From: Coptis chinensis
Taxonomy: Eukaryota; Streptophyta; Magnoliopsida; Ranunculales; Ranunculaceae
Length of the DNA: 64,000 nucleotides
Reading direction: 5' to 3'
NCBI GenBank assembly: GCA_015680905.1
Contig: CM027384.1
Span: 75,425,501 to 75,489,500, forward strand
Below are positions 17,202 through 63,400 of the stretch, piece after piece. Numbering within the stretch: the first letter of the stretch is position 1; every line of letters begins with the position of its first letter. A program made the position numbers and the translations under genes. The notes below the pieces were generated by a model. That model saw only the letters and a list, made by a program, of their open reading frames with translations, was not told where the DNA came from and did no database searches.

Positions 17202-20200
17202 AATGGACGATGAGTGGAGGAGGAGCATAACAAAGCGACAACATGGTCGATTACCACCAACAAGTAATTACAATCATCATAACTACCAACCAACTACTCT
17301 TGAAGAAATAAGAACTCTTTGGATTGGTGATCTTCAATCTTGGGTGAAGAAAATTACTTCAATACTTGCTTTGCTCACCTTTGGAGAGGTAAAAAGAACT
17401 CAATGCCCATCTTCTTTTATTTCATCTTTTTGTGTTTTAATTAATATTTAGTATGTTGGTAGGTGATGTCAATAAAAATCATACCTAACAAGATTACGCA
17501 ACAGCCTGAGGGTTACGGTTTTGTGGAGTTTGCTTCTCATGGGGCAGCGGAACGAGTTTTGCAAACATATAATGATACACTAATGCCTGGGACTGACCAA
17601 CCATTTAGATTGAATTGGGCATCTTTTGGGATTGGAGAAAGATGTCCTGATGTAGGACCCGAGCATTCTATTTTTGTTGGGGATTTAGCATCGGACGTTA
17701 CGGATTATTTATTACAAAAGACTTTTCGAGCTCAGCATCCGTCTGTTAGATGTGCTAAGGTGGTGACTAATCCTAATACTGGTCGTTCTAAGGGTTATGG
17801 ATTTGTTAAATTTTCTGATGAAATGGAAAGGAACCGTGCTATGAGTGAAATGAATGGGGTGTATTGCTCAAAGCGGGCCAATCGTGCTCCAAAGAAGGCT
17901 CTTGGTTTCCAAGAACCGTTATCTTGCACCGAAAGGTAAGAATCTTTTTCCTAAGAAAGAAACGCTACTAGTGCTATATTGGTGTTTATGTTGTATTGAA
18001 CATTAGAGTTATTGGTGCTAAGTTCTGCTTGAAAATGGTCCTACATAGTTTGCAGATATGCATAGTACTCAACTGTCCGCTGTACCGAAAAAAAAAAAGA
18101 TAAGCATTGTGCACAGCTGTCCATTGCACAGTTTGTGCCTTAGAGATCGTTAGTGGATGGTTTATGGTTGTGGACAGACTTACAAGTAAAATTTATTCTC
18201 TAATTTCTCAATTTGTTTGTGGCAGCAGTATATCCAACACCTGCTTTCAACACTGCGGTAGTGCAGCCATTTCCAGCTATAGACAATGATATTACCAACA
18301 CAACAGTAAGTCAAGGTAAAGATATTCTGAATGAATTTCATTCCCATCTTTAAAAGTTAATGATTGTCTTATTTCTACTGTAGATATTCGTTGGTGGTGC
18401 GGACCGAATGTCACGAGGAGGAGGAACTGAGGCAAATATTTACGCAGTTTGGTGATCTTGTCTATGCAAAAACAATACCAGGTAAAGGATGCGGCTTTGT
18501 ATGGTTTGGAACTAGGTATATTTGAATCCCCCTTTTCATTGTATTACCCGGTTTTATTTTGCTTTAATTTATATTTTCTTATATTTGTTTATTGATTAAT
18601 TTATGTAGTACCTTGTTTTGTTTCGTTTTAGACTTTAGCTATTGTCAATTGCTTGCTTGTGACTTCCAAATTCTAAACATTAGAAGCATGCTACTTTTAG
18701 CACATTATTCTTTTCTTTTTGCTATTAGCAATTTAAGGGTATAATATTGTATTTCTGCATTGGTGATCAGTCAGAATGGTCATTTACATTCATTAATATT
18801 CAATTTCTTTTATCTATTTGTTAGTATTTAAGGTTTTAAATCTATGTTTTTCTGTCTAGGCAATCAAGGAAGTAGCAATACAGAGATTGAATGGAACTAT
18901 GATTGGCCAGCAAACCGTACGCCTTTCATGGGGTAGAAGTATGACAGCTAAACAGGTAAATCTATGATATATGCTTGCTATTGAATAGGGAGGGCCTTGA
19001 ATTAGATTTCTATTTGTGCATATATGGTGTGAGGATGAACTCTATAACGTTTTATTCTTAGATAAACCTGTGAATTTTGTTTACTATAACTATTTCCATA
19101 CTTATGAACATTTTGAGGAGATTGAGGATTTGAAAGATTTATTCCCTGGCGAGTTTCAAAGCAACAAGTGCATGATGTTTTATTGTCACATTCCTCACAA
19201 TTACCCCGACTTCCTTCAAAGTTCTTTTCTTGATTTTTAACTTGCCAAATACTGTTCAAAAATGTTGGAGTTCCATTTTTACATGGCCATTGACCGATGT
19301 TTTACTGTCCAAATTACATGATCAGCCGGGCGTCTGGGCTCAGCCATCAGATCCCCATCAGTGGAATGGTGCTTATTATGGTTATGGGCAAGGCTATGAT
19401 GCATATGGTTATATGCGAGATATGGGCGGTATCCTCAACAGGCAAGATATTGCAAACACTTAATTTGTCAAATAATCCTTATGTTCAACGCTTCTTTAGA
19501 GAATTTTTTTGGCATGTGTTTGATTGGCCTAAAAATTTGATTATTAGTGTTACTTCTTATTTATAGGTTTATGAAACACTCGAGAATTGGTGTGCGTCTA
19601 TATATTATGGACACTCCATATTTTAAAAATAATCCATGTCAGATATGTATCCATGTGTTTGTGTCAAACATGACACACACGTATTGTATGTGATATACCT
19701 AATTTTTGGTTCTTCACCATATCGGACACTTTGTATCGGTGTCGGATTGGTATGTGTACCCGTGTCAATTTAAATTAGGTGTGTGATACTAGATTCAAAC
19801 AAAGGAGGACTAAATGATGGAAGAAATTATCTATTGATTTTTGGACTCTATATATTATTTTTTGCATCTGTACATTTTAATTTTCTTTAAGATGAGCCTT
19901 GTTTCATCCTTTTAAATTTAAATTATGTAAGTCATGAAAGTATAATATACATGAATATAATTCCATTGGTAACCTAACTGTTCTCAAGACATTTTCAGGC
20001 GGAAGGCACACAAGAGATGGTAGCTATGGCAGGTGTTGTCCCATCTGTGGAGCAGAAAGAAGAACTATATGATCCGTTGGCTACACCTAACGTTGACAAG
20101 TCAGTTTTTTCTCCTTTTGTCAGCTTTCATAACTTTATTCAATCAGGTCTACTATTTACTTCATGGTTTGTGTCTAAATCTACACTCATTGTTAACTCCT

Positions 20201-42470: not shown

Positions 42471-45400
42471 TTAACCTTCGTTTTTAACAAAAGATACCGA
42501 GGAGACTAGTTTACGATTCAAACCAAGGGAAGCCGCATGCCTCACTACATCATACTCAAGCTTCGCTTGGGTGATTTCGTCAAGATCTGCAAGTTTTAGA
42601 GAATTAAATATAGGTGATCAGTATCAGTGTGCACTTGAAACACAGGATTATTCACATAGCTGCAATACTTCAGAATTAGACCCAGTCCAACTAGTTGAAT
42701 TGTGAGCCAGTGAGAAAGTGCATTAGCATTTTGTTAATTTCCTAATAAATGTTTCTTGACCACCCATTGAGCAGGTAAATAAGTGCTCTTAATAAAGAAT
42801 TTGCATTGGTTATTGGCTATGTACCAAGACACCAGGACGTAAATCTTATACTGCAATTTCCTCTTTTGCATGCTTAGGGCAAACATGCCAGAAAATGACA
42901 GTGAAGAGGAAGGAGGGATGGCCCTACCAGACACCTAATTAATCTAGCAGATGATCTATTCCAATGGTGAAAATTAAATGAATGACACCATACCTACAAA
43001 CTGGGCATGTCTTGGATATCTCATTTCAGTTGATGAAGATACATATGCTCTACTGACCATAGATTTGATGGTTTAACAGTCTACTAATGACCAGTTTTTA
43101 ATTCTTAATGCATTTTAAAGAAGAAAATCTTCCATACCTAGATCAGCTGAAATGAGGGACTCCCCTTGGCAATTTGGTCCTGCCAAAACAGCTCCTGATG
43201 GTGAAATAATGACACTGCCTCCAGAACAAACAACTGAGTCTGGCGAGAGATCTCCATTTGTATCTCTGGAGTCATTTACTGGTCGTAGAGGATAATCTTT
43301 CCTTTGACAGAACTGATTTGCAGATAGCACAAAGCATCCACCTTCAACAGCGATATGGGTCATCGATGCTTTCCACGCATCCCTCGCATCTGCTGTGGGT
43401 GCACAATATATTTCGACTCCTGCAGAAAATAACAAAAAGTTTGTTAATGTCATTGTTTATAGGTGTTATTTCTTGATAGGTATGCCTAAAAGAGTACAGG
43501 GCAATATGGGCTTGAATGATCATGCATGAAATGACAGTCTAAATATCTGTGATAATATGTTTTTCTGATTTTTCCAGTTATGACTTTTGAGATTTTGTCT
43601 ATATTGGATAGTCATCTTATGCATCATATACTAACAGCTGCGTAAAAGCCATGTGGATATAAAGTTCAGAATTAGATATTCCACAATAGCTCATTACACA
43701 GAGTTTCAAAGCACAATATAATCTTTCACAATGCAGTGTGAAAGATAGATATTCCATAATAGCTCTTTCACAATATGTCTTTCACAATATAATTTGAAGT
43801 CTGTAACTTCAAATTATAACTCGGTTATTTCAGGAATATTTAATATTAATAAATGTATCTCTACAAATAGACGATCTATACTGTTGATTGATACAATGGC
43901 CCTTAGTATGTATCCAATTTCTTTAAGGCGTCATGAGTAAAGGCTTTTATCATATTCAACCATAAAAATTCTATGTAACTGATGATGCTTCAGCTAACAA
44001 GGTCCTATGATTTGGGATAGCCAAAAATATAGACTACTTTCAAGATCTTTGATTCCTCAACCAATTTAGTAGTAATTATAAATGAAAACATCCAATATTT
44101 ACCACCCTTCCACACAAGATAGTCTGCTGAACAACTCTTTTTGACCATGAAGATATTCCTAAATAAGTTAATTGGTTAAAGGAAAATACCAATATCACCA
44201 CACCTTCTCTAGGAATGAGCATGAGCACAGTGTGCACTTATTTCTCCAGTCTAGGAACTTATGTCCTTAGAATTACAATGGCCATACTTTAATGATCACA
44301 AACTCTTAATATCTCCTATGAAAAGACTAAAATAGCCCCCTTCCCATAGTATTGAGGGCTTGGACAACTTCCTTCATGAGTCCCTAACATTGGTTCTGAC
44401 CATGATTGATATTGTCATACAGAATATAGAGTCCAAAAACGGTTGAGATACCGACATCTTAGTCTCTTAGCACAAACGAAATGAGAAATCAACATTATAA
44501 ACAGGTTTTACTTTCGCTCTTCAGCCCACTTCACAGAAACACACTAAGCACTTCGCCATTCTGATCTCGGAAAAGACCTGTGATCCTGGATTCCCCTTCT
44601 CTAGACCACCTCCATGATTTCTTAAACAGCTAATTTCATCCAACCTCAATAATTTCAGAAGCTCCCTTAGTATAGACCAGTGAGGGGATTCTAGGTTGGG
44701 AGATCACCAATTTCTTTGTTGTCCAACGTATGGTCATAATCTCAGCCCTCTAAATAAATCCAAAACCCAATATATGAACAAGTATTTGACTATTTTCTAT
44801 AGTTTATGGACTAGAAGTATGATGTGAATTAAAGGCAGAAGCAACTTTAATCAACACACCATTGATAAACTAAGACTAATTCTAACCCTAAATTGATGGA
44901 AAAAGGGGATTTTAGTCAACCCTAAAATCAACACACTTTTAATCCGAAAATCACTACTATATTCTCAATAAATCAACCAACTAATTTGTGAGACCAAAGG
45001 CCTTATTTATGCAATTCAATCCTTGAGCTCCAAGGACTCCTAAATAGAAACCAACTACTAAAATAGAACCTACTAGAATATTAAATACTAATTAGACTAT
45101 ATTACTAAATACTTAATACTACTAATTCGATCAAAGTATCTCATAACACAGTAAGTGATTTTGATGATGGATCTGTATGACATAGTTTTAAACCATAGTC
45201 AAAGGTCCAGTTTAAATTTTGATAACAAATTTATGTTTAATATCACAAATACAAACCAAAACTCACACTTTAGTGAGATGCTCATCAAGCGTGCACATGA
45301 CTAGTATATATGTAAACACAAAAACTTTTGTAGGTTCCCATGGCTACCAGTCCCATGGTTTCTAAATTGTATTCACAGGTTCAAACACTCTGGTGTGGGA

Positions 45401-48400
45401 TTGCCATTTGGAATCATGCCAAGCATTTAATTTGGTGAACATGTGAAGCATCAATTCTTCCGACCTCATAAAAGAAAGTAATAAAATATCATAATCATAG
45501 AGTTGGAATATTTACCTTCAGAATATAACTCTGTTCTTAAAGGGGGCATTCTATTATCCCAGCATGCGAGACCACCTATCATTCCAACAGATGTCTTATA
45601 TACCGGGGGTGTCGCTTTCTCCCCAGATTGCCATATCATGTGTTCTGATGCAGTTGGAATAAGCTTGCGATTTTTACCAAGACACTGCCCCTGCGAATCA
45701 AAAAAGAGGAGCGTGCTGTAGAGTGTGACTCCTACTCTCTCTACCACTCCCATTACTAAATGGACTTTATATTTTAGGCAGATTGCTGCCAATCGATCAA
45801 CTTCAGGACCTATAAGGTCAAACAACAAACATTAGATTCTAATTAAAACAAGAAACTTATAAAATTTGGCACAAAAAATAACTGATAACAAGCACAAACA
45901 TAAAATACATAGATTTTGTGCATAGTGTTGGCAGCAAATAAACAATTATCAGATGTATATGACAGAAATGCAATAGTGCTTTAAGTGAGGAGGGCAATGG
46001 GCTTATTCGTAGCATTAATAATTCCAATAGGTGATAGTAGACGAGCAAGTTAACACAAATCTAGTTCATCGGAAGCATAGACTAATATGGCAGGACCACA
46101 TAAAATTTAAAAGGAATGAGTGTTCCAGAAAAGCAAAGGGAAGACGGAAGAATACATGAATTATGTGATGAAAGAAGCTATAAAGATAAATGAAGTACCA
46201 GATATTTGGGACCAGGATGCAACTAAAAGGAGGAATAGACTCCCTCAAGCATTTGGGACCAAAAGAGTTGAAAGGAAAGTTTCAAATCTTCAGAATCCCC
46301 GCATTATCAATTCCACGAAGAGAAAATGTCCGCTTCTTTGCCGAAAAAATATATTTAACCCCAATTTATTCATCATATATCAAGATCAGGCATATAAGCA
46401 CGTCTACATCACTGTTAACACACAAAGAAATACAAAAATTGACACAAATAAGGGGAAAAAAAAGGGGAAGGAATACAGGATGTTAGCTCTATATAGACCT
46501 TGACACCACTGGATCTTGGCTATCTATCTATCTAAGAGTAAAAGGGCATTCTGTGAATTGGCTCGGTTTGCCTAAGTTGGGATCTGTAAGAGGCCTTCGG
46601 AGTTGCCATATGTATTTTTTCATTTCGGTCAGAATCAGATTTTCATTTATAACTGTATAAGAAGGAAACGAGATTATAAGACAGAAAAACATACATTACG
46701 ACTTGACTTAATAAACGAGAAAACACAGATGCAGGAATTTCAAGGAAAAGGGCAGATAATGCACAAGTTTGGTTCAAATTCCCCAAACCGCAATTTAAGA
46801 GCAGGAGAGGCTACTACACCCATGACTTAACAAATCCATTACTATATCTAACCGATATTTTAGGACATAGCAAAAATGGAACAGTGCAAATATAAGAAAT
46901 ATCGAATTCCTTTCCCGAATTACCAATATACAATATATATTGTGGGATATTCTCTGCCATGTTTTGAGCAACAATCTATACTGGTTCTTTGGGTCACCCA
47001 AACAGAAGTATAAACTTGATTCAGTTAAAGGAGAACTCGGCACTCACCAGGAACATCAATTGCTGCAGTATGATACTTTCTGAATTCTTCATATTCCTCA
47101 ATTGGATGGTTTGCATCAGTAATATCAAAGTTGATAAAACGGGGATAACCCCCAACAAATGCCTCAGGAAACACAACTAGCTGTGACCCATATGCAGCAG
47201 CACCTGCAATCAGCCTCTCCGCCTTGTCTGCGTAAAAAAAAGCAAAATCTTTGATTATATTACTAGAAAACACAGAATTTGCAGAAGGAAAAAAAATATT
47301 AATCATGTAAAGGAAAGCAAAGCAAAGTTAAGCAACACATGCAGGAGGATTCCTCAGCTAACCAATGTCCAACAGAGTACTCAAAAAAGGAAAACGGAAA
47401 TAAGAATCTTTAGAGGATTCAGACTCTTCTCTGGACAATCTTGTTAAGGGGTTAAGACAGTATAGTTACTTTGTATAAATTAGATAATAGCGTCTCCAAA
47501 CAGGTACATGTAACTGGAACCATAACTGGAACTGTAACGTGTCCATAAAACCACATAAGTGATGATTAAGGCCCACATTGTGTTTGGGTTTGTTCCACGG
47601 CCTATAATTCCCAGATATGGAGTTCCGTACGTAATTTGATATGAAAACTGTGCACAAAACATTATTAAATCTATGACAATATGTTACACAAGCACAAGAC
47701 ATCAAAACAGAAATCTGGTAATAACCAATTCAGATTTCAGATACAATGGAAAACGAAAGAGAAGCTACTACGATCTCCTCTCCCCCTCATTCCATTCTAA
47801 CTTTCTAATACGTGAATAGTAGAATAAAAGGCATTTGATGCTACTACGAAATCTATGGATTGCAATTTATCCCCATCAGCATGCCCATATTCCTATCCAC
47901 ATGCCAGCAATATCACAAACGATTCAACCTCTGCAAACACTTTGCCCCAAGAAGAAAATTCTGACAATCGTCACAATCTCAGCATTTCCAACACAGATAC
48001 CAGTACATCCCTATCCATTCTAAAGTTAAATGAATGAAGGGCCGTCAAAATTTACATGATAATAAATTTAAAAAAAAATTATTTAAAGTAATCTAAAACT
48101 TAGTCTTGTATAAAGAAACTTCTAGCGAGAGATATAACACAAGGACTTTTAGAACATGACCAACCATCTAAACCCACAACTCCTGAGTCCTGATGATAAC
48201 ACAGAACTTTACTCTTGAGAAGGTGATGATCACATTGATTAAGCGTCAAAACACAAGGAATACTGCCAGGGTTTAAATCTGATAAATGATGTAAAATACC
48301 AATGAAATAATAAAAGCTATAAGTATATAAGACAAAAAAGATACGATTAACGTTTATCCTGAGAAAGACAGCTACTGAACTACATCATCTATGAGTTGTA

Positions 48401-48472
48401 CTTGGAAAAAAGGAAGGGAAAACATCTGAGATTACTTGTTGTCCACCTTTGCTCTTCTCACCAACACATCCA

Positions 48473-48510
<38 letters not shown>

Positions 48511-50499
48511 AAAAAATGTCATACTTCCTAAAACTTTAAAAGGAAACATGTGTGAACCTAATTGACACACATATGTGTGACCGTATCCGACACGGATATG
48601 AAGTGTCTGACATGGCGAATTATAAAAAATTGAGGTATATTACATACACTATGTATCCGACAAGGACACGTGGATACGTTTTCAACACAGATTAATTTTA
48701 ATATAGGGCGTGTCCATGTAACCTAAGTGTGAACCATTCACTGAGACCCCCAGAGTTCCACCATCTTCATCTTCTTATCAAACACTTCGTCTTTAAGGCT
48801 TTCCATTTAACAAGGTAATGATTACCCTAGATTGAGACAATACAAGCTCCTAAGGCAGTTGACAATTGAAACAATAACCAAGACCCTACCAAAGGGAACA
48901 GTATATACTAACTTTGTGATCATTTGCGTGAACAAGACACATTCCATGATGGAATCCAGAATTGGAGGTTGACATGGTTGTATGCTTGCACCATGTTTAC
49001 TTTTATATACAACCCCAAAGCATTCAAGTATTCAACCTATCCTCTTAACAAACAGAATAACATATGATCAACTTGTGGATGATTCCCCAAAATAGCAATT
49101 GTTACCCATACCTCAATAGTCAATTCCATTCTCCTTTTCATAGACATCAACAACAAACAATAACATAAAACCTAGTGCAAATATGAAATGTATCTTATAA
49201 AGGCAAAGAAAACCTCTTTGGATAACTACTGTAAGGGAGACTCAAAACTCTCTTATAGCATCACTGGCAAGTAAATTTTTACCTCTGCTCACAATGGTCA
49301 GAAGTCAGAACATTTCCTCATTATTCCAAACTGTCCTCAGTTCTTGTTTACCTCAAATAACCTATATGTGATAGCAACTTAATATATGTAATGCACCAAA
49401 ATTACCCAAAGGTTACTATGACCCAAAACTTAATATCTTGTAGGGATTACTATGACACCCTCCTTAAAAAGCAGTGTAACAATTCAATTTCGTGAGAAAG
49501 TGTCCAGTTTCCACCACAGTTATGAAGTGGCAACAATCTGACCTACATAACTATATAATACACAAATCATATTGTTGAATCTACTTGTCTCTGAAACACG
49601 GGATATGTAGTATCTGACATAATGGGGCCTTCTTTTAAGATAACCTAAATATTATTTTTAGTACAGTGGATAAGTTAATGAAACGTTCATCAAAACACCA
49701 TCACATTTCCTATCAACCGAATACTTATCATACTATGCACTCTAAACGATTCTCATTTCGTACATTTTTCACCTAAAATTCCTTAATCAAATAATTTGGC
49801 ATCCTTGTAAAGTATCAACCTTGACATAACAAAAATGTCAAAAAAAACACCCCAAAACCTCAAACCAACAAACAATGAGAAACAAAATGAAAACAAAACA
49901 ATACCCAATGTCGCAGGCGTATCATAAAACACAGTAGACGCTTGTACAACCGTAGCGCGAACAGTGGGCCTCGGCCCACGACAATGATCACCCATAAATG
50001 CATCCCCTTCCTCCTCCTCCTCCTCAACTTCTTCATCATCATCACCCCCAAGCATAAATTCCCCATCACCACCATTCTCACCCACAGGAATCAAAGCATT
50101 AATCTTTCCATTCCCACCATCTTCAGAATAAGCAAAAGCAACTGGGTTAGGTACCAAAACATTAGTACTATTACTATTACTATTATTATCAGTAGTGTTA
50201 AGTTTCGGTGTAGCAGTTTTTTTGGACCCAACAGGTGGTTTGTTAGGCAATGGAGAAACTAGTTCGGGTCTAGATTGTTGTAATAACCAATGAATTGCTT
50301 CACCATTTGAACGTAAGCCAAGTTCTTGTGTTATTTGTGCAAGTCCAGTTGCACATGATGCTGGTATTCTTATTCTACTGTTGTTGTTTCTTTTGTCTAT
50401 TTTTGTTGTTATTGTTGTTGATGGATCGGAGGGTGTTGATGAGTCCACTCGTTGTCGTTTTCTTTTTTGTGGTTGTTGTTGGGGTTGTGAGTCGTTCAT
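42471..50499 (-). CDS. TCP-domain / NIT4-like nitrilase fusion protein
   Basis: Five exons (50499-49905, 47227-47048, 45809-45516, 43419-43138, 42586-42471), all GT-AG, give one frame of 488 residues. Residues 1-32 are polar with a basic KRKRQR. About 32-81 reads [39 protein letters not shown]: a divergent TCP domain, the plant-specific DNA-binding bHLH. A Ser/Asn linker and an acidic run ([12 protein letters not shown], 153-164) follow. In the same exon it passes without break into [22 protein letters not shown], the start of NIT4-type nitrilases, and the rest covers the whole enzyme domain to about 470. The triad is present: Glu220 ([12 protein letters not shown]), Lys307 (NRKLIPT), Cys341 (ACWDNRMP). 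NIT4 enzymes hydrolyse beta-cyanoalanine in cyanide detoxification and are about 350 residues long. The segment between Lys and Cys departs from NIT4 (the FGDGS phrase is replaced), so substrate or activity may differ. An inner start at Met169 could give a plain nitrilase. Confidence 0.9.
48478..48506. repeat. (CA)n microsatellite in intron 1
   Basis: About fourteen CA units followed by an A-run, within intron 1 of the TCP-nitrilase gene. The Cys-Val frame on the minus strand is a by-product. Confidence 0.9.
48550..48725 (-). repeat. Dispersed repeat, inverted partner of 19.57-19.79 kb
   Basis: Its reverse complement shares TCCACGTGT, ATATACCTCAATTTTT, CAGACACTTCATATC and GTGTCGGATA with the copy in the RBP pseudogene intron. 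It lies in intron 1 of the TCP-nitrilase gene. Confidence 0.6.
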
Positions 50500-50710
50500 G
50501 TTTTAGTGAGTTGAGTTGTTCATGAAATCGGTGTTTATTGGTTTTGATTTCGGTGTTCGTTACTGCAGAGTGTGAGGAGAGAGAGAGTATTTCAGGTTGT
50601 GGATGGATCTGGAAAGGCCCATCTCAAACAGTGGGTTACTCAGCATGGGCCTCTAGAGTATACCACAATTCAAAACATAAATTTAGGCCCAAAACACATA
50701 AATTTACCAA
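50500..50710. promoter_or_regulatory. 5' flank of the TCP-nitrilase gene
   Basis: Only about 210 bp separate the start codon from the large transposon at 50711, so the proximal promoter is short or partly transposon-derived. A GA-rich stretch (GAGGAGAGAGAGAG) lies at about 50575-50588, a common feature of plant 5' leaders. I cannot identify a TATA box with confidence. Confidence 0.35.
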
Positions 50711-50859: not shown

Positions 50860-51022
50860 TGATATACATGCAAACACCACTATGCATATATGATATGCAC
50901 TACATATGTATACCAGTATGCACACATCATTATGCATGTGTATAATACACATGCAAACATTATTATGCATGTGTATACATGTGCATAACAAACATGCAAA
51001 CACTACTATGCATGTGTACACC
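50860..51022. repeat. ATGCATGTG minisatellite, first block
   Basis: Imperfect units of about 30 bp with the pattern ACATGCAAACACTACTATGC then ATGTGTAC. The core ATGCAT is palindromic. The same array continues at 52320-52459 and 53715-53775. Confidence 0.75.
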
Positions 51023-51347
51023 GAGTGGCGGAGCCAGAAAATTGGGTGAGGGTGAGCCACAACTAGTCACTATAAAACAAACTAAAATAAGATAACACCC
51101 AATTTGTCGAATTTTTGTTTTCCTTGTATATTTCTTAAAAGTATAAAAAAAACACAATTCGAATCCCATCACAAAAGACATGTAAATTTTGGAATTACAA
51201 AAGATTGATTGCTTAATAGATTGATTTAGGAGAAAAAAATAAATACATGGACATTTAGCTTTAGAAAATTAAGAACTTAAGAAGAAAGTGCCTAGAAATA
51301 TATGCTTATTACAAATATATATGCTTATGGAAACCATTTTAAAATTC

Positions 51348-51385
<38 letters not shown>

Positions 51386-52319
51386 AATTCTTTGGAACTG
51401 TAAGGAAAATAGTCCAAAAGACATTAGGAAAAAAATAAACACTTAGGCGCAATAAAGAATATTGTACAAATGTTTAGACATTTTTTTTGGCTAAAGGGTA
51501 ATTAATATTAATAGCAAAAAATGGTGTTACAGACTTACAAAACGTTTACAAATTCTATATTGGGAATATAATCCCCATATTTATGCTTTCTCAAAAATCT
51601 ATAGGGTTAGCAAAATTTGGATTTTCAAGCTAGCTTGTTACGCCAACATGGTTTATGATCCCACCATTGTTTTAAATTGTACATGTTTAGACACTAGTAC
51701 ATTTTTTTTGTCGTCACTTTAGCGTTTATTTTAATTGTTTTTATTTTCATTCAATCCCGAAATTCCAATCAATGCCTTAAGTAGATTCAAAAGTAATAAA
51801 TTCACTACAATTGACAATCAAAAAAAATTATACAACAAATTAAAATTGTAATGGACTCGAGTAACCGATAGATCGAATTCATTATATACAAAATTGAATT
51901 ATAATTAATAAAATTTATTAACAAAAAACTAAAAAAATAAGAAATTGGGGAATTAAGGTTTAGAAAACATACCAATAACATACATATGAATTATTGGGAC
52001 TGAGACTTGAGAGTGTTATTACTCTTTTTTTCTCTTTCATCTTTTTTGTTTTTCCAAACAAGGAAAAACACCTGGCAAAAGTGTTGTTTATCAAAATACA
52101 TAAAATTAGAGATCAAGAGCTTTCTCACGTTGGTTATGGGAAAGGAGTTTTTATTTTGGGGGTTAGTTACGGTGAGGGTATAGTAACAAAACCGTTTTCA
52201 TATATATGGTACTTACTTTTTTTGAGTATTATCGAAAAAAATAATAATAGAAAAAAAAAAAATTAAGAAGTTGAGGGTGAGCCAGGGTGTACCCTGGCCC
52301 TCCCCTGGCTCCGCCACTG
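51023..52319. mobile_element. hAT-like non-autonomous transposon, copy 1
   Basis: Ends GAGTGGCGGAGCCAG and CTGGCTCCGCCACTG are inverted repeats (14 of 15). Flanking 8-mers TGTACACC (51015-51022) and TGTATACC (52320-52327) are a target duplication with one difference. End sequence of the CAGTGG type and an 8-bp duplication are hAT features. It is 1,297 bp, contains a 45-base A-run at about 51340-51383, and has no transposase. Confidence 0.8.
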
Positions 52320-52459
52320 TGTATACCACACATGCACACACAATTATGCATGTGTGCAACAAACATAAAATAAATGAAATTTACATGCACACACCATTAT
52401 GCATGTATGTGTGCAACAAACATGCAAACACTACTACCACACATGCACACACTATTATG

Positions 52460-57180: not shown

Positions 57181-59366
57181 TGTCTGATTCTGACGACACG
57201 CGATCTGATGAGATTCGCTAGGTTTCTCTGGGTTTTGATGATGTTGAAGAAAAGAGAGAAGAATCAATTGGGTTTGAGAGTGAGAGGGAGGAGGTTGAAC
57301 CTGATACTGTTGTGGCTGTAGAAAGTAGCTCTAATAGTAGGGTAGCATCGACCTCTAGTGGTTTACCCCCTAGGATAGTAGATAGACGAGCTGTTAAAGC
57401 TTTTGCCTATATGAGGAAAGTTTATGGTGTAAAAGTGAGCAACCTGGAGATACATGAACTGGCAGAGGATGACGAAGTTTTTAGTGAGACGTTCATGCCA
57501 GCGAACTACGGGATAGTTATCTGCGAAGGGCAGCTGAGGGTGGGGATGAGGATACCACTCTCAAAGCTGGTTTGTGAGTTTCTGAAATTTTGTGAGAAAG
57601 CACCCTGCCAATTCGTTGGCAATACCTGGAGGTTGTTCAGGGTGTTTGACCTGGTGAACGGGAGTGGTGAATATCGCATTGAGGTTAAGGACATTATTGA
57701 GCACTTCTCTGTGAAGCGATCTCGGGCTAATAACTTTAGCTTGCAAACACAGACTAGAAAGTCTAGCGTGTTGGACGGTGTGAGTAACGAGCCTTGGGTG
57801 AGAAGGCCGTTGCTATTAGTTGAGAACTTCTGTGCCAGGGGATTTGGCGTACACACTAGGGTTTGCAACTTTTCTGGTGGGTGTTGGTGTTTTGTCTTGA
57901 TGTTTTGATTGTTGATCTGGTACATGATATGTATCTTTTTTGTTTTTGCAGAGGCGGCGGTTAAATGGCGAACTGAGCGTGGGGTGATAGAAAGGTTTGC
58001 TAAGCTAACTCGAGCTAAGAAAAGGGAGATATTGCCTAAAGTAGCAAACTACTTCGTTGAAAGGGGAGGTCATCAAATCAGGGTGAAAAGAAGGAGGCAA
58101 AAGAAAAGGGATCGGGGCCAAGTTAATCGTGAACTATCTACTAATTCCAGCATGGAGAGGGAGAACAACAACATTAAGACCAGGGAAGATAGGGGAAGGA
58201 ACCGTCCTGGGCATGTGCGACCTGCAGGTGGCACTGGGAGTTCTAGAACTGGAGGTGGGAGGGGGCATGAGAGCGCACCCTATGATCTGGATGACATCTC
58301 TATTGTTCCGCATGAGCGAAGTCGCTTCTTGAAGAGGAAGGGTGATGAGTCTAAGTCGAGGACTGCCAAGGTCGCAAGAGCGGTTGACATCATACTTGGG
58401 GGTAGCTCGGGATTTGGCGGTGATGGACGAACTGGTGGGAAGACAATTCGTAGCTCGAGGTCAAGGTCTGAGGTCGATTTTAGTGTCCTGGGCCATGGGG
58501 GTACTAAGGTTGTGCGGACCAGGGCTGCTGGGGACGCTGCTGGTAAGGTGAAGGGAAAGGCTGCTGCTAGGGAGACTGGCAAGGGTCACTCTGGTAATGG
58601 GAGGGATGATCTGGAGCGTAACCTGGTGTATGTAGATGATGTTTCTGGCAAGAAACGACTTGTTAAGAGGTCGGACTATAGCTACAAGTCCGCACCTGTA
58701 GCGGCCTGTTTACTGGAGGGGATGACACTAGATGATGACAGGAAAGATTTAGATTTGAAGGAGTTGGAAGAGAACTTGAGGGAAATGGATAAGGCGTTAT
58801 GCTTGGTACGTGCTTATTTTGTTGTGGTTGGTTTTTCTTTGCTTTGCTTCATATTACTGTTTGGTAATGATGCTATGTTGTGATCTCACTGGTGTAGGTC
58901 ATTTCAGGGTATCAAAAGCTGAAAACAGCGGCTTAGATTGCTGAAATGGAGAAGACTGAGGTCGAGTCCTTGAAGGATGAATTGTCGACTCTTCGAGAAG
59001 TGCAGCAGTCTGAGAAGAAGGAATTGGACGCTTTGAAGGCACAGCTCACTTCGGTGATTCTGGACAAGACGGTGGCTGACAATGAAGTGGCTAACCTAAA
59101 GAGAAAGTTGACCATGGCGAACGACTTCACTGAGAAGTGCAAAAAGGTCACGCTGCAAGCTAAAGAGGCATATGATGACATGCTCCTTGATTTGCAGGAG
59201 CTGGAGAAAAAAATATGAAGAGTTGCAAGAGGAGCATGAACGTGGGGCTTTGGGTGGTCGAGGGAATGACTCGCTCGAAGATGCTAGTAATGCTCTTGAA
59301 GTAGTGTCATCCTCTACTGTTGCTGTCTCTACTGATTTGCCTCAAGCGAGGGCGACTTGGGGATGA
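57181..59366 (+). mobile_element. Gag-like region of a plant LTR element, broken
   Basis: Plus-strand frames at about 57312-57908, 57909-58883 and 58946-59366 encode, in order, a domain with IPLSKLVCEFLKFCEKAPCQ and NTWRLFRVFDLV, similar in plan to the 'putative gypsy type transposon' domain of plant elements; a basic Gly/Arg-rich middle; and a coiled coil (ESLKDELSTLREVQQSEKKE). This is the usual layout of gag-like proteins in non-autonomous plant LTR elements. It is interrupted a few times. No protease, reverse transcriptase or integrase was seen. A host origin is not excluded. Confidence 0.55.
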
Positions 59367-60286
59367 CCATTGCTGACTCGGCTACGGCGACCTCCATAGA
59401 CCCTGTCTCCCCGCAAGTGCTAAATCCACTTCAAAGTGAAGGTTTTGAACATCTTGTTTAGAAAATTCTTGTGTAGGTAACTGCTTTTGTATGGCCATTG
59501 GCTTGAAACAATAAAGCTGGTTTCCTAGGGTAACCTGGGCAGTTCGCCTTAATTAGTAGGTTTTCTTTATTGTACTTTGAATGACCTGGCTTCCTGGATT
59601 GTTCTGGGGAGTTCATGGAGTGATGAATGGTGGATAACCGAGTTTGATTTCCTAAGTAGACTCAGCAGCTCGGTTAGTAGACAAACTGGGGCCTAAGTTT
59701 GGCCAGGCAGTTCGTTTTTTTACCTTTATGAAATGCATGTTTCTGCTTCTTGTTTATTTTTGTGATATTGCGAATGCGATCTTCTTGATGTTATTGTACC
59801 TGTTTAGCATTGTAGCCTTTCTCTAGTAAGATTTGATGAGGATGATTAGCCTGTGATCCTGATTAAGCGTCTTGCTCTTTAATCGGTCCTAGTGTTGTAG
59901 GTCCATATAGTGATAGGTATTAAGGCCAAGTAACCTAGGAGGTCGGGGGAACGTCTTGTGCATATGCGAGTGTTTGCCATGTCGGAGCGTTCTGCTGAAA
60001 GAGGACCCTAGCACGTGTGAGAATACGAACAGTTGGAGATCCAAAAATGGTAGTTGCCAGGTGGTGTGCCGTTTTACGTTTCGATGTATTTATGATGTGC
60101 CTTGGGAAGGTATGCAATTTGAACATAAAAAGAACTGTTGTAAGAAGTTTAGGGCATTTGTTCTGCATTTTCTTCACGCTGCTTCTCTAAGGTTCTTGTG
60201 CAAGTTCCTTGATCGTTCCAGGTTGGTATCTTCCCTTGTTTGTTCCTTCTTTCTTGTTAACTTACTGAACGTTGGGTTGTCCCTTG
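59367..60286 (+). other. Non-coding tail of the gag-like region with short repeats
   Basis: Contains several imperfect units of the form CTGG-TTCCT, about ten bases, then GGCAGTTCG (59515-59720). The same units occur at 63650-63850 after the second gag-like copy. A CGGTCCTAG-TAGGTCC phrase near 59880 recalls the minisatellite of the 31.7-35.9 kb element. Confidence 0.55.
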
Positions 60287-60405
60287 TTACCGCGATCACA
60301 CCAGTGACGTGGAGATGCGCATGATGATGGAGGGGCGAGAGAAGCCTCTCCCCTTGTGATGGATGATATTGAATTTATGCCACGTCGCCGGTGTGATCGC
60401 GGTAA
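60287..60405. repeat. 26-bp inverted repeat with 67-bp loop
   Basis: Left arm 60287-60312 and right arm 60380-60405 are inverted repeats with two mismatches; the outer 16 bases (TTACCGCGATCACACC) are perfect. It lies at the start of the second gag-like copy. Confidence 0.8.
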
Positions 60406-63400
60406 ACGGAAGGCGGTTGCTTCTGGCTCGAAGAGCAGCAAACGGTCCAAAGCGGAAGGTCGCTTTACTTCCGGTTCGCGCGAGCGAACTGGAGGTATAG
60501 TGTTCAGGTCCCCCAGTCATAGGGATGGTGGCGACCTAAACACGGAGGACCGTGGCGTGCTGGGTCGGGGACAAAGTGATGTTGGTGAGAGCTCTGGGAC
60601 GCGTGTTGGTGACCTGGGAAGCGAGTTCTTCTATATTGGGAAGACAGGGAAGAAACGTATGGTGAAACATTCTGACTGTAGCTTCCACTCAGCACCCATA
60701 GCGACCTGTCTGCTGGAAGGAATTGTGTTGGATGGTGATAAAGAAGAACTTGGAAGTGAAGATTTGGGAACGACTCTGGGGACCATGGACATGGCATGTT
60801 GTTTGGTAGGCTCTTCATATGGTATGGTTTCTTATTGTTTTGTTGTCGAATATAACATTGATGTTCTATTTGTAGTTCCTTGCTAGGTACGATAAGTTAA
60901 TGAATACTGTCCAACGTGTTAACGTGCTGACAATGGCGAAAGCGATGTGAGCAAGGTCAAGGAAGAACTGGTGAGCATATATGCATGTGAGTTGCATGGG
61001 AGGCTGATAAGAAGAAATTGAAGGCTGTGACGAAAAATCATCAGGACGCTTTAGATGAGAGGTCGGTTCTGGTCAGCTCAATGATCGATCTGCGGGAGAA
61101 GCTGGCTACAACACCCCGTCTTTTTATTTTATTTTCCTATAATAATAATAATAATAAGAATAAGAATAATAATAATAATGATAATATGTTAAACTAAATA
61201 TATGATAACTATCAGTTAAGGATAAAATCCCCTTAGGTAAATAGATAAGTTTCATCCTTGTTTTTCAGTGAGGTTTTAAAAACTAAAAAAGGGGATTCTC
61301 ACGTAGAGTTTATGAGGGAAAAACACAGAAAAACTTTTATACATAAAAAAGGGTTTTACTGAAAGAAAAGAAAAGGAAGATTTTTCTGTTAGCTAGCGAA
61401 TAGTCGGAACGCAATACGGATGAGTAGTATGAAGACATTCTTTTAAATTTTCGTTTACTGCTAATCATGTCGGTTATATTGTTTTCCTTACATGATATAT
61501 TGTTATTGAACATATTGTAACTCTGTCAATGGTGGCTGACGTTCATAAAAAAAAAAGTTTGAAGTATTGTATCTACGCAAATTCTTATTTTTTTCGTGAT
61601 TATTATGTTGTGATGATGATGAGCATGTGGTATTAGTAAATACCAAATCATTGTTTGATTGGATTCGAATAGATATGCTATTACAAGGGTTTTGTTTTAC
61701 TGCTACTATTGGTCTATAGGATTTTGTTGGTGGTTGGAAGTGTTTTGTGGTAAGGAGATGATCCATATAGGTTGTGTGGGTTGCCGGGGAATGATTGGTA
61801 GTGGTGGAATCGTGGTATGAGCGTTGTGAAGCTCTGAGCAGCCATTAATGGCGGCAATATCGCGAGTTTTGATAAGGGAGGAAATCGAGAGTTGATGGGA
61901 TCGGTAGATGGGGTTTTTGGTAGGGATTAAAACCGTGTGGTTTAGTAGTGGTGGTGAGTGGTGGTGGAGGCGCTGGGGAAGTGAGGAAGAAAAAGAAGAC
62001 AACGTACTGTTCGTTTCTTTTTATTGGGCTTGGGCTTGGGCCGAGATATGGCATGTGGTCTTAAGTGTTTAGTTGGGCTTGGAAAGGTTAAAGACTATGG
62101 GCCTTAGTTATTAGGTTTTTGGGGTTAGATAAGTTTAGAATGCTTGACTGTTGTTGACCCTTGACTAGTTGACTGCTGTTGACCAGTCAACCCTTTGACC
62201 AGGTTTGACTTTTGACTATTTGCTAGGATTAGGTCCAGTAGGATAAGTCTAGGGCTATTAGGGTGTTGGGCTTTAGGCTAAGTCTAGTTTTTACCTAAGT
62301 GTGTATGTGTATTAACTACTATGTGAATTTCATTTATTATTAAAATTATGTTAGGATATATGGCTTAGGCTGTGAAATATGTGTATGAAAGCCCAGAGAT
62401 GGCTATGATATTGTGGTATTCGGTGGGAGAGAGGCACACAGGAATGTGTGATTTGGCAAATATGTGGAGTGCAAATCGTGGAGTAAGTACTAAAGGGTGG
62501 GTGTATAAGAAAAGTAATCGATTAATTAATAAGAGAAATAAAGTTGATTGTACGGGGTGCTTAGACTTACATTTGAAAACTTATATGATATCTACATATG
62601 TTATATAAAATTTCTAACTTTCGTTTGCAGGAGGGTAGGACTTAATAATATTTTGTGCAGGGACGCGGTCCTACCCTTATACAGCAGTGGATATCGGTAA
62701 GTTTAATTCAATTACTTAGTTATTATAATGAGTAATAAATTGAGAGTTTTGCTTGAGAAGAAACTATGCCGGTTGAAATGACGGAACTACCTGTCTTTCA
62801 AGCTGAGAATGATTAAGATATGGGTACATATAAAGTGTTGGTTGGATAATTAAAGTCTAGAAATGAATTTATATTGTTAGTCTACTCATACCAGCAAATT
62901 CCATTTTGCTGACCCATGTTTGCTTTGTTTTGGCAACGTGGGTGTGTTCGTGGGAACATAGGTGGAAGGCAGTGGAACCGCGGCGGGTGATTTGGATTCT
63001 TGCCTAGAGCAGTCAGTTAGTTCTTTTATTAGGTCCGATTTTTCTTGGAAGGATGTAATAACGTAGTTTATATTTTCAGCATGACATGAGAATAAGATAT
63101 TGAAGACTTTTATTCTTAGAGTTTGTTTGATGTTTTGTTTGGACGGAAGATAGCTTAATAAAGTGATGGTGGAAATTCTTGGGTTTATTCTTTTATGATT
63201 TGGGTTTTAGGTTTTGGCATGTGTTGTACCCCCGTTATAGCCTGGGTTTTAGACAATTGAATATAGTAATGTTTGAGATATTTATGTTTTAAATATTGAC
63301 TTTGTAATTGTTTAGAAATTAGGCCGTGACAATCGGCCGTAGTGGACCGAGTATACCAAGCATTGTCGTATGCCGCATCTAAAGGCCAGGTGTATATGAC

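Follow-up and report, generated by a model that had tools for sequence, protein, structure and literature searches.

A stretch of 64,000 nucleotides from the genome of Coptis chinensis (C8:75425501-75489500, referred to at its full length as the window) carries a gene in which a TCP transcription-factor domain is joined to a nitrilase. This gene belongs to a eudicot family of single origin, whose members combine a TCP domain closest to class I with a duplicated NIT4-type nitrilase. TCP factors govern growth and the shape of organs, and nitrilases deal with cyanide and with nitriles related to auxin; through a conserved protein containing both, nitrile metabolism would be tied physically and directly to the control of growth. 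The fusion is old and occurs widely, a point absent from the preliminary description of this DNA. Many fused members among the matches listed are named NIT4A or NIT4B, which affects annotation as well as TCP surveys in trees and crops.

The fused gene in Coptis chinensis

The coding sequence comprises 1467 nt including the stop, that is 488 codons in a single frame, distributed over five exons with GT-AG borders at 4/4 introns and a gene span of 8 kb; the exons, borders, frame and length are those given in the preliminary description. The parts of the gene, in window positions, are the following.

Exon 1, 49905..50499, minus strand: KRKRQR basic stretch, eroded TCP basic arm, TCP strand and two helices, acidic-run linker, first nitrilase strand
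TCP domain (amino acids 32-80), 50260..50406, minus strand: recognized by PF03634, by sequence match to TCP15 and by the AlphaFold model; arm 32-40 eroded, strand 41-47
Variable linker (amino acids 81-178), 49966..50259, minus strand: acidic run and VAFAY / ISIAYP-like patch
Exon 2, nitrilase, 47048..47227, minus strand: contains the catalytic Glu220
Exon 3, nitrilase, 45516..45809, minus strand: Lys307, Glu314 and Cys341; WQSGEK in place of WGxGDG, CWD in place of CWE
Exon 4, nitrilase, 43138..43419, minus strand: breaks match those of the canonical NIT4 of the same genome
Exon 5, end of the nitrilase, 42471..42586, minus strand: diverged tail with the last residues FVKNEG, then the stop

The junction between TCP domain and nitrilase lies inside exon 1 and therefore holds without any splicing. 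The stop-to-stop frame opens at 50502 and the ATG is at 50499; with an in-frame stop directly 5' of this ATG, no longer N-terminus is possible. In the predicted protein, the Pfam TCP profile matches residues 32-110 with 34.2 bits against a curated cut-off of 23 (E 4.7e-8), and CN_hydrolase matches residues 181-459 (E 1.6e-54). A sequence search of the PDB pairs the TCP part with TCP15 (E 1.5e-9, residues 32-82) and the nitrilase part, which has both the domain and the fold of these enzymes, with Arabidopsis NIT4 (6i00; E 8.3e-126). The two Pfam matches confirm the earlier claim that one gene joins the two domains, and the TCP domain, which had been called divergent but recognizable and proposed for a profile search, scores above the cut-off with its arm eroded. 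In the AlphaFold model the helices 47-59 and 65-76 are confidently predicted, with a mean pLDDT (the per-residue confidence of the model) of 79-91 across the ten-residue blocks of residues 41-80; the strand is not assigned in this monomer model. The results listed by the VIA-align 2 fold search include no TCP chain, and residues 1-174 were barely tested by that search.

The nearest annotated protein among the matches listed, P0001 (Coptis chinensis IFM89_004125), is the same gene from the same assembly and therefore gives no independent confirmation of the fusion; its gene model runs on into intron 1. In a search of the 935.6-Mb genome of the species (33 matches, best candidates scored), the locus is the sole spot with TCP and nitrilase stretches together. 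A canonical NIT4 is found on C5 of the same genome; the four breaks between its tblastn pieces agree, within a few residues, with those of the fusion. Because these breaks coincide, the fused gene looks like a NIT4 copy whose short exon-1 leader has been swapped for a TCP-coding stretch, by a route that we infer. Further NIT4-like exon matches lie at C1:12434485-12435771, C4:97172876-97173184, C7:95703298-95703582 and C2:95357904-95358119, and may be decayed copies or further genes; since the C5 NIT4 matches show stops too, the stops in some of these matches may be mere intron edges.

Distribution and origin of the family

Relatives were collected by a single-protein search (best 120 of 3759 matched) and a profile search (best 120 of 3634), with 8000 candidates scored, and the two together give 149 different proteins. 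Both halves are present in 62 of these 149, as scored by the TCP second-helix motif, which missed at least one protein with both Pfam domains (P0137); the 62 are clusters that include isoforms and near-copies, and do not stand for 62 genes. Applied to alignment A1, Pfam finds TCP in 22/23 proteins (E up to 0.001) and CN_hydrolase in 23/23. The fused proteins come from Ranunculales (Coptis, Aquilegia, Ranunculus, Macleaya and Papaver), Proteales (Nelumbo, Macadamia, Telopea and Protea), Saxifragales (Liquidambar), Fagales, Rosales, Malpighiales, Celastrales, Malvales and Carica. Among the best 120 of the 3759 and 3634 matches, no fusion appears in asterids, Caryophyllales, monocots, magnoliids, legumes, cucurbits or Vitis, which is not proof of absence. 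The Vitis vinifera protein P0013 (NIT4B, 543 residues) has no TCP domain, and its model seems to join part of one NIT4 copy to a second.

Three of the relatives are ‘lgn’ contigs of 1571-1690 bases, which encode 428-474 residues; ‘lgn’ presumably stands for an assembly of public reads. Given that the Coptis gene spans 8 kb, these contigs are read as spliced transcripts. P0002 and P0008 (1608 and 1690 bases) contain the entire fused frame, and P0004, like P0028 and P0128 among the fused proteins, begins inside the TCP domain. The upstream frame, which the preliminary description had suggested looking for in related genomes, is conserved in the relatives, with P0002 and P0008 carrying it in full.

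In a nitrilase tree of 63 rows, made up of the window, 32 of the 62 fused proteins and 29 NIT4 proteins (P0001, near-copies, isoforms and some others were left out), the 33 fused rows form one clade with support of 100/100. Within this clade the groupings of Ranunculales, Proteaceae and core eudicots are the expected ones, with Nelumbo apart from Proteaceae; Carica forms a long branch, and the bootstrap values had not converged. A TCP-domain tree (55 rows, 54 columns) splits 36 fused rows from 19 unfused TCPs at 99/89; it contains 36 of the 40 tabulated fused rows, four gappy ones having been dropped, leaves out class II and partial Coptis loci, and drew from the program a warning that long branches meet, which concerns Populus, next to which the arm-eroded Ranunculaceae are placed. 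Because the fused nitrilases are one clade and the TCP halves fall together, the fusion has, as judged from these sequences, a single origin by early eudicot history. The tree as drawn places the fused clade among the NIT4 rows with weak support, and approximately unbiased tests of three placements, which bear on its dating relative to monocots and magnoliids, reject none of them (p 0.327, 0.432 and 0.322). A search with the TCP part of the Liquidambar protein returned 12 proteins (nine fused, two TCP19-like and one unnamed TCP) among only 23 candidates, and ‘nearest unfused TCP’ is therefore a weak designation.

Comparison of seven Ranunculales rows with 14 others gives a mean identity of 42% for residues 32-45, 61% for TCP residues 46-80, 25% for the linker, 71% for the nitrilase and 31% for the tail. 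Both domains look constrained, since TCP residues 46-80 and the nitrilase exceed the linker. The VAFAY / ISIAYP-like patch of the linker is common to Ranunculales, Proteales and Liquidambar. In four rows of Malvaceae, in which the nucleophilic Cys is replaced by Tyr, mean identity reaches 90% in the nitrilase, 89% in TCP residues 48-80 and 57% in the linker; four Ranunculaceae rows have 83% in residues 48-80 against 48% in the linker, and the TCP helices of Malpighiales are less conserved (61%).

The preliminary description knew of no plant protein of this kind, but poplar members are already in print. PtNIT2 and PtNIT3 of poplar were noted in 2018 to carry a TCP-like N-terminus in front of a nitrilase of the NIT4 group that has the catalytic triad (Glu, Lys and Cys), and a regulatory role was guessed for them (PMC6196558). 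They correspond to Potri.006G207700 and Potri.016G074200; the former appears in PMC8959825 under the name PtrTCP37, a newly added member with five exons, and the main text of that paper makes no mention of nitrilase. These descriptions cover poplar only, and the TCP arm is strongly eroded in both tabulated Populus rows. The words nitrilase, hydrolase and Coptis are absent from the main text of a TCP survey of Ranunculales (PMC9752903). No description of the fusion as a family was found in the open-access literature searched. NitFhit of C. elegans (1ems) has a nitrilase, presumably of a different branch, combined with a different partner that is not a transcription-factor domain.

The TCP and nitrilase halves

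Like class I TCPs (TCP15, 7vp3/7vp6), the fusion has a strand-helix-helix order, the ELGxxSxGETIxWLL core and Cys20, which is kept in 37/38 of the fused rows reaching that position. Unlike them, it has RP[DE]L and not AEPA after helix 2, a residue other than Gly at position 11 in 24/27 rows with an intact arm (His in 13, Asp in 10, Asn in 1), an attached enzyme-fold domain and, in Coptis, a lost arm. The intact-arm members have a short arm without the class II insertion, but Gly11 in just 3/27. Gly or Asp at position 11 is tied to class I or class II site preference (PMC5174091, PMC8959825). A basic arm for DNA contact, of the DRHxKxxGRxRR type, is not found in the Coptis protein. Among the 40 tabulated fused rows, 3 are truncated; of the 37 that reach the arm, 27 have one that begins with [DE][RK]H and 10 have lost it, and the armless rows are Coptis, Aquilegia, Ranunculus, one lgn row, Carica, Ricinus, Manihot, Mercurialis and two Populus. 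On a tree over 30 rows the loss needs three changes, and the TCP helices persist. As Papaveraceae, Proteales and most rosid rows are near-canonical in the TCP domain, the divergent arm of Coptis seems to reflect a secondary loss within Ranunculaceae. TCP domains hold DNA by a central strand pair and two N-terminal basic loops (PMC10049435), and the Coptis protein therefore seems to have lost one of two kinds of DNA contact, which most tabulated relatives have not.

The nitrilase half differs from NIT4, the beta-cyanoalanine nitrilase/hydratase (6i00), in that, besides the added TCP domain and linker, its WGxG[DN]G, CWE and GHYxRP motifs are changed. WGxG[DN]G, also present in the bacterial 3wuy, occurs in 0/33 fused rows against 29/29 NIT4 rows, and Arg315 in 1/33 against 29/29; the residue two after the nucleophile is Asp343 in 33/33 fused rows and Glu in 29/29 NIT4 rows. 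In 22 columns altogether, a residue fixed to 95% or more in NIT4 occurs in no more than 10% of the fused rows; two of these columns are in the NIT4 leader, outside the nitrilase domain, and the others include Tyr and Arg in the C-terminal GHYxRP. The nucleophile itself, across the 62 fused clusters, is Cys in 39, Tyr in 21 and Gly in 2, with at least three changes on the tree. Because the motif changes are family-wide, they suggest that the ordinary nitrilase reaction was altered or lost early in the fused family, and Cys-bearing members might still be active.

At the C-terminus a psi-K-x-E motif is present in 27/40 fused rows against 1/28 NIT4 rows (shuffled mean 1.3/40), the rows being related and some models ending early. 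Its interpretation as a wholly new SUMO-type site was dropped, as many NIT4 tails already carry KTE or similar; just the preceding hydrophobic residue is therefore new in the fused tails, and the motif is retained as a lead. In nuclear foci, class I TCPs come together with the SUMO enzyme SCE1 (PMC10049435).

Possible functions and neighbouring sequences

The favoured reading, to which we give an even chance, is that the protein is a nuclear TCP-type dimeriser, in which the nitrilase fold has been repurposed as a ligand-binding or assembly module. By the mechanism that we infer, the protein would enter the nucleus via its basic clusters and dimerise through the TCP helices, and the nitrilase fold would serve for assembly or ligand binding and would not act as a normal beta-cyanoalanine nitrilase. 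Members that keep the arm intact would probably bind DNA, perhaps with a specificity shifted by the His or Asp at position 11. The armless Coptis protein would more likely pair with other class I TCPs, and a signal read by the nitrilase fold would alter their activity.

Several points weigh against the repurposed dimeriser. Glu220, Lys307, Glu314 and Cys341 are all present in the Coptis protein (the second Glu, Glu314, being counted as catalytic), and the nucleophilic Cys is kept in 31/40 tabulated fused rows and absent in 9; catalysis may therefore persist. The structural model has a mean pLDDT of 57.7 and is poor around the nucleophile, and the changed motifs are not placeable on the structure. 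The nuclear basic clusters are seen as sequence patterns only, and DNA binding, dimerisation, nuclear localization and enzyme role are predicted properties. Identity in a Malvaceae pair is 86% for the fused nitrilase against 93% for NIT4, the species pairs not being the same; the fused domain may be the faster-evolving of the two, yet it is far from free. PtNIT2 and PtNIT3 have only trace expression in poplar leaves (PMC6196558), and some members may therefore be fading.

The meanings that had been put forward for such a protein, namely a nitrilase held in the nucleus, a TCP protein with a metabolite-sensing or scaffold domain, and an enzyme with a degenerate leader, were rightly chosen as candidates. 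The alternatives overlap, and the weights given to them need not sum to one. It is possible, if somewhat improbable, that in the armless lineages (Ranunculaceae, Malpighiales and Carica) the protein mainly serves to dimerise with class I TCPs and to modulate them or act on them as a dominant negative. The 10/37 rows that lost the arm kept the helices, and residues 48-80 are far above the linker in the Ranunculaceae rows (83% against 48%); such a role is probably not ancestral, though, as 27/37 rows keep the arm, and the helices of Malpighiales, at 61%, are less conserved as well.

More tentative is a metabolite-gated TCP factor, in which a nitrile or related ligand would be bound, not turned over, and would switch DNA binding or partner choice. 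Catalytic residues that are mostly kept amid remodelled sequence neighbours agree with it, as does the near-canonical TCP arm of 27/37 rows; against this, the Tyr at the nucleophile position of Malvaceae may fill the pocket. Equally speculative is the broader idea of an old, overlooked eudicot class of metabolite-responsive TCP regulators, in which the nitrilase pocket and assembly surface would control dimerisation or DNA choice, and from which lineages would repeatedly have dropped catalysis or DNA contact with the coupling kept. The repeated change of the nucleophile or of the DNA arm is a natural experiment for separating the roles of the two halves.

It is rather doubtful that the protein is an active nitrilase located in the nucleus or at chromatin, for which the TCP half would be the address and which would act on cyanide-derived or auxin-related nitriles near target genes. 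Glu220, Lys307, Glu314 and Cys341 in Coptis and the Cys of 31/40 rows would allow it, but WGxG[DN]G is lost and the Glu two after the nucleophile is changed to Asp in 33/33 rows each, and the nucleophile has changed at least three times in a domain that is still conserved. A fading relic, that is a once functional fusion now drifting and possibly translated from Met169 as a plain nitrilase, is unlikely: lineage-specific losses of arm and Cys (both in Carica) and the trace expression in poplar leaves (PMC6196558) would fit, but fused frames are open across many orders, TCP residues 46-80 are far more conserved than the linker, and with the NIT4 hallmarks lost no plain nitrilase would result either. 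A plain NIT4 with a random leader is rejected, TCP residues 46-80 being conserved across orders. That P0001 shares its assembly with the window is all that speaks for a gene-model or assembly artefact, which we regard as next to impossible and reject in view of the single-exon junction, the agreeing proteins of many species, the two 1.6-kb contigs with the full fused frame and the nitrilase and TCP trees.

Around the gene, a likely DNA transposon with short inverted ends of the TGGCGGAGCCAG type occupies window positions 51016-52326, about 520 bases upstream of the fusion start codon, and its arms (51016-51037 and 52305-52326) are 86% complementary. Long plus-strand open frames without a Pfam match lie at 57222-60886; two of them share SAPxAxCLLEGxxLD and may belong to a repeated element. 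Two stretches of RNA recognition motif (RRM_1 in Pfam, E 8.8e-24) lie in an open frame at 17463-17939, which is perhaps an RBP45/47-type gene.

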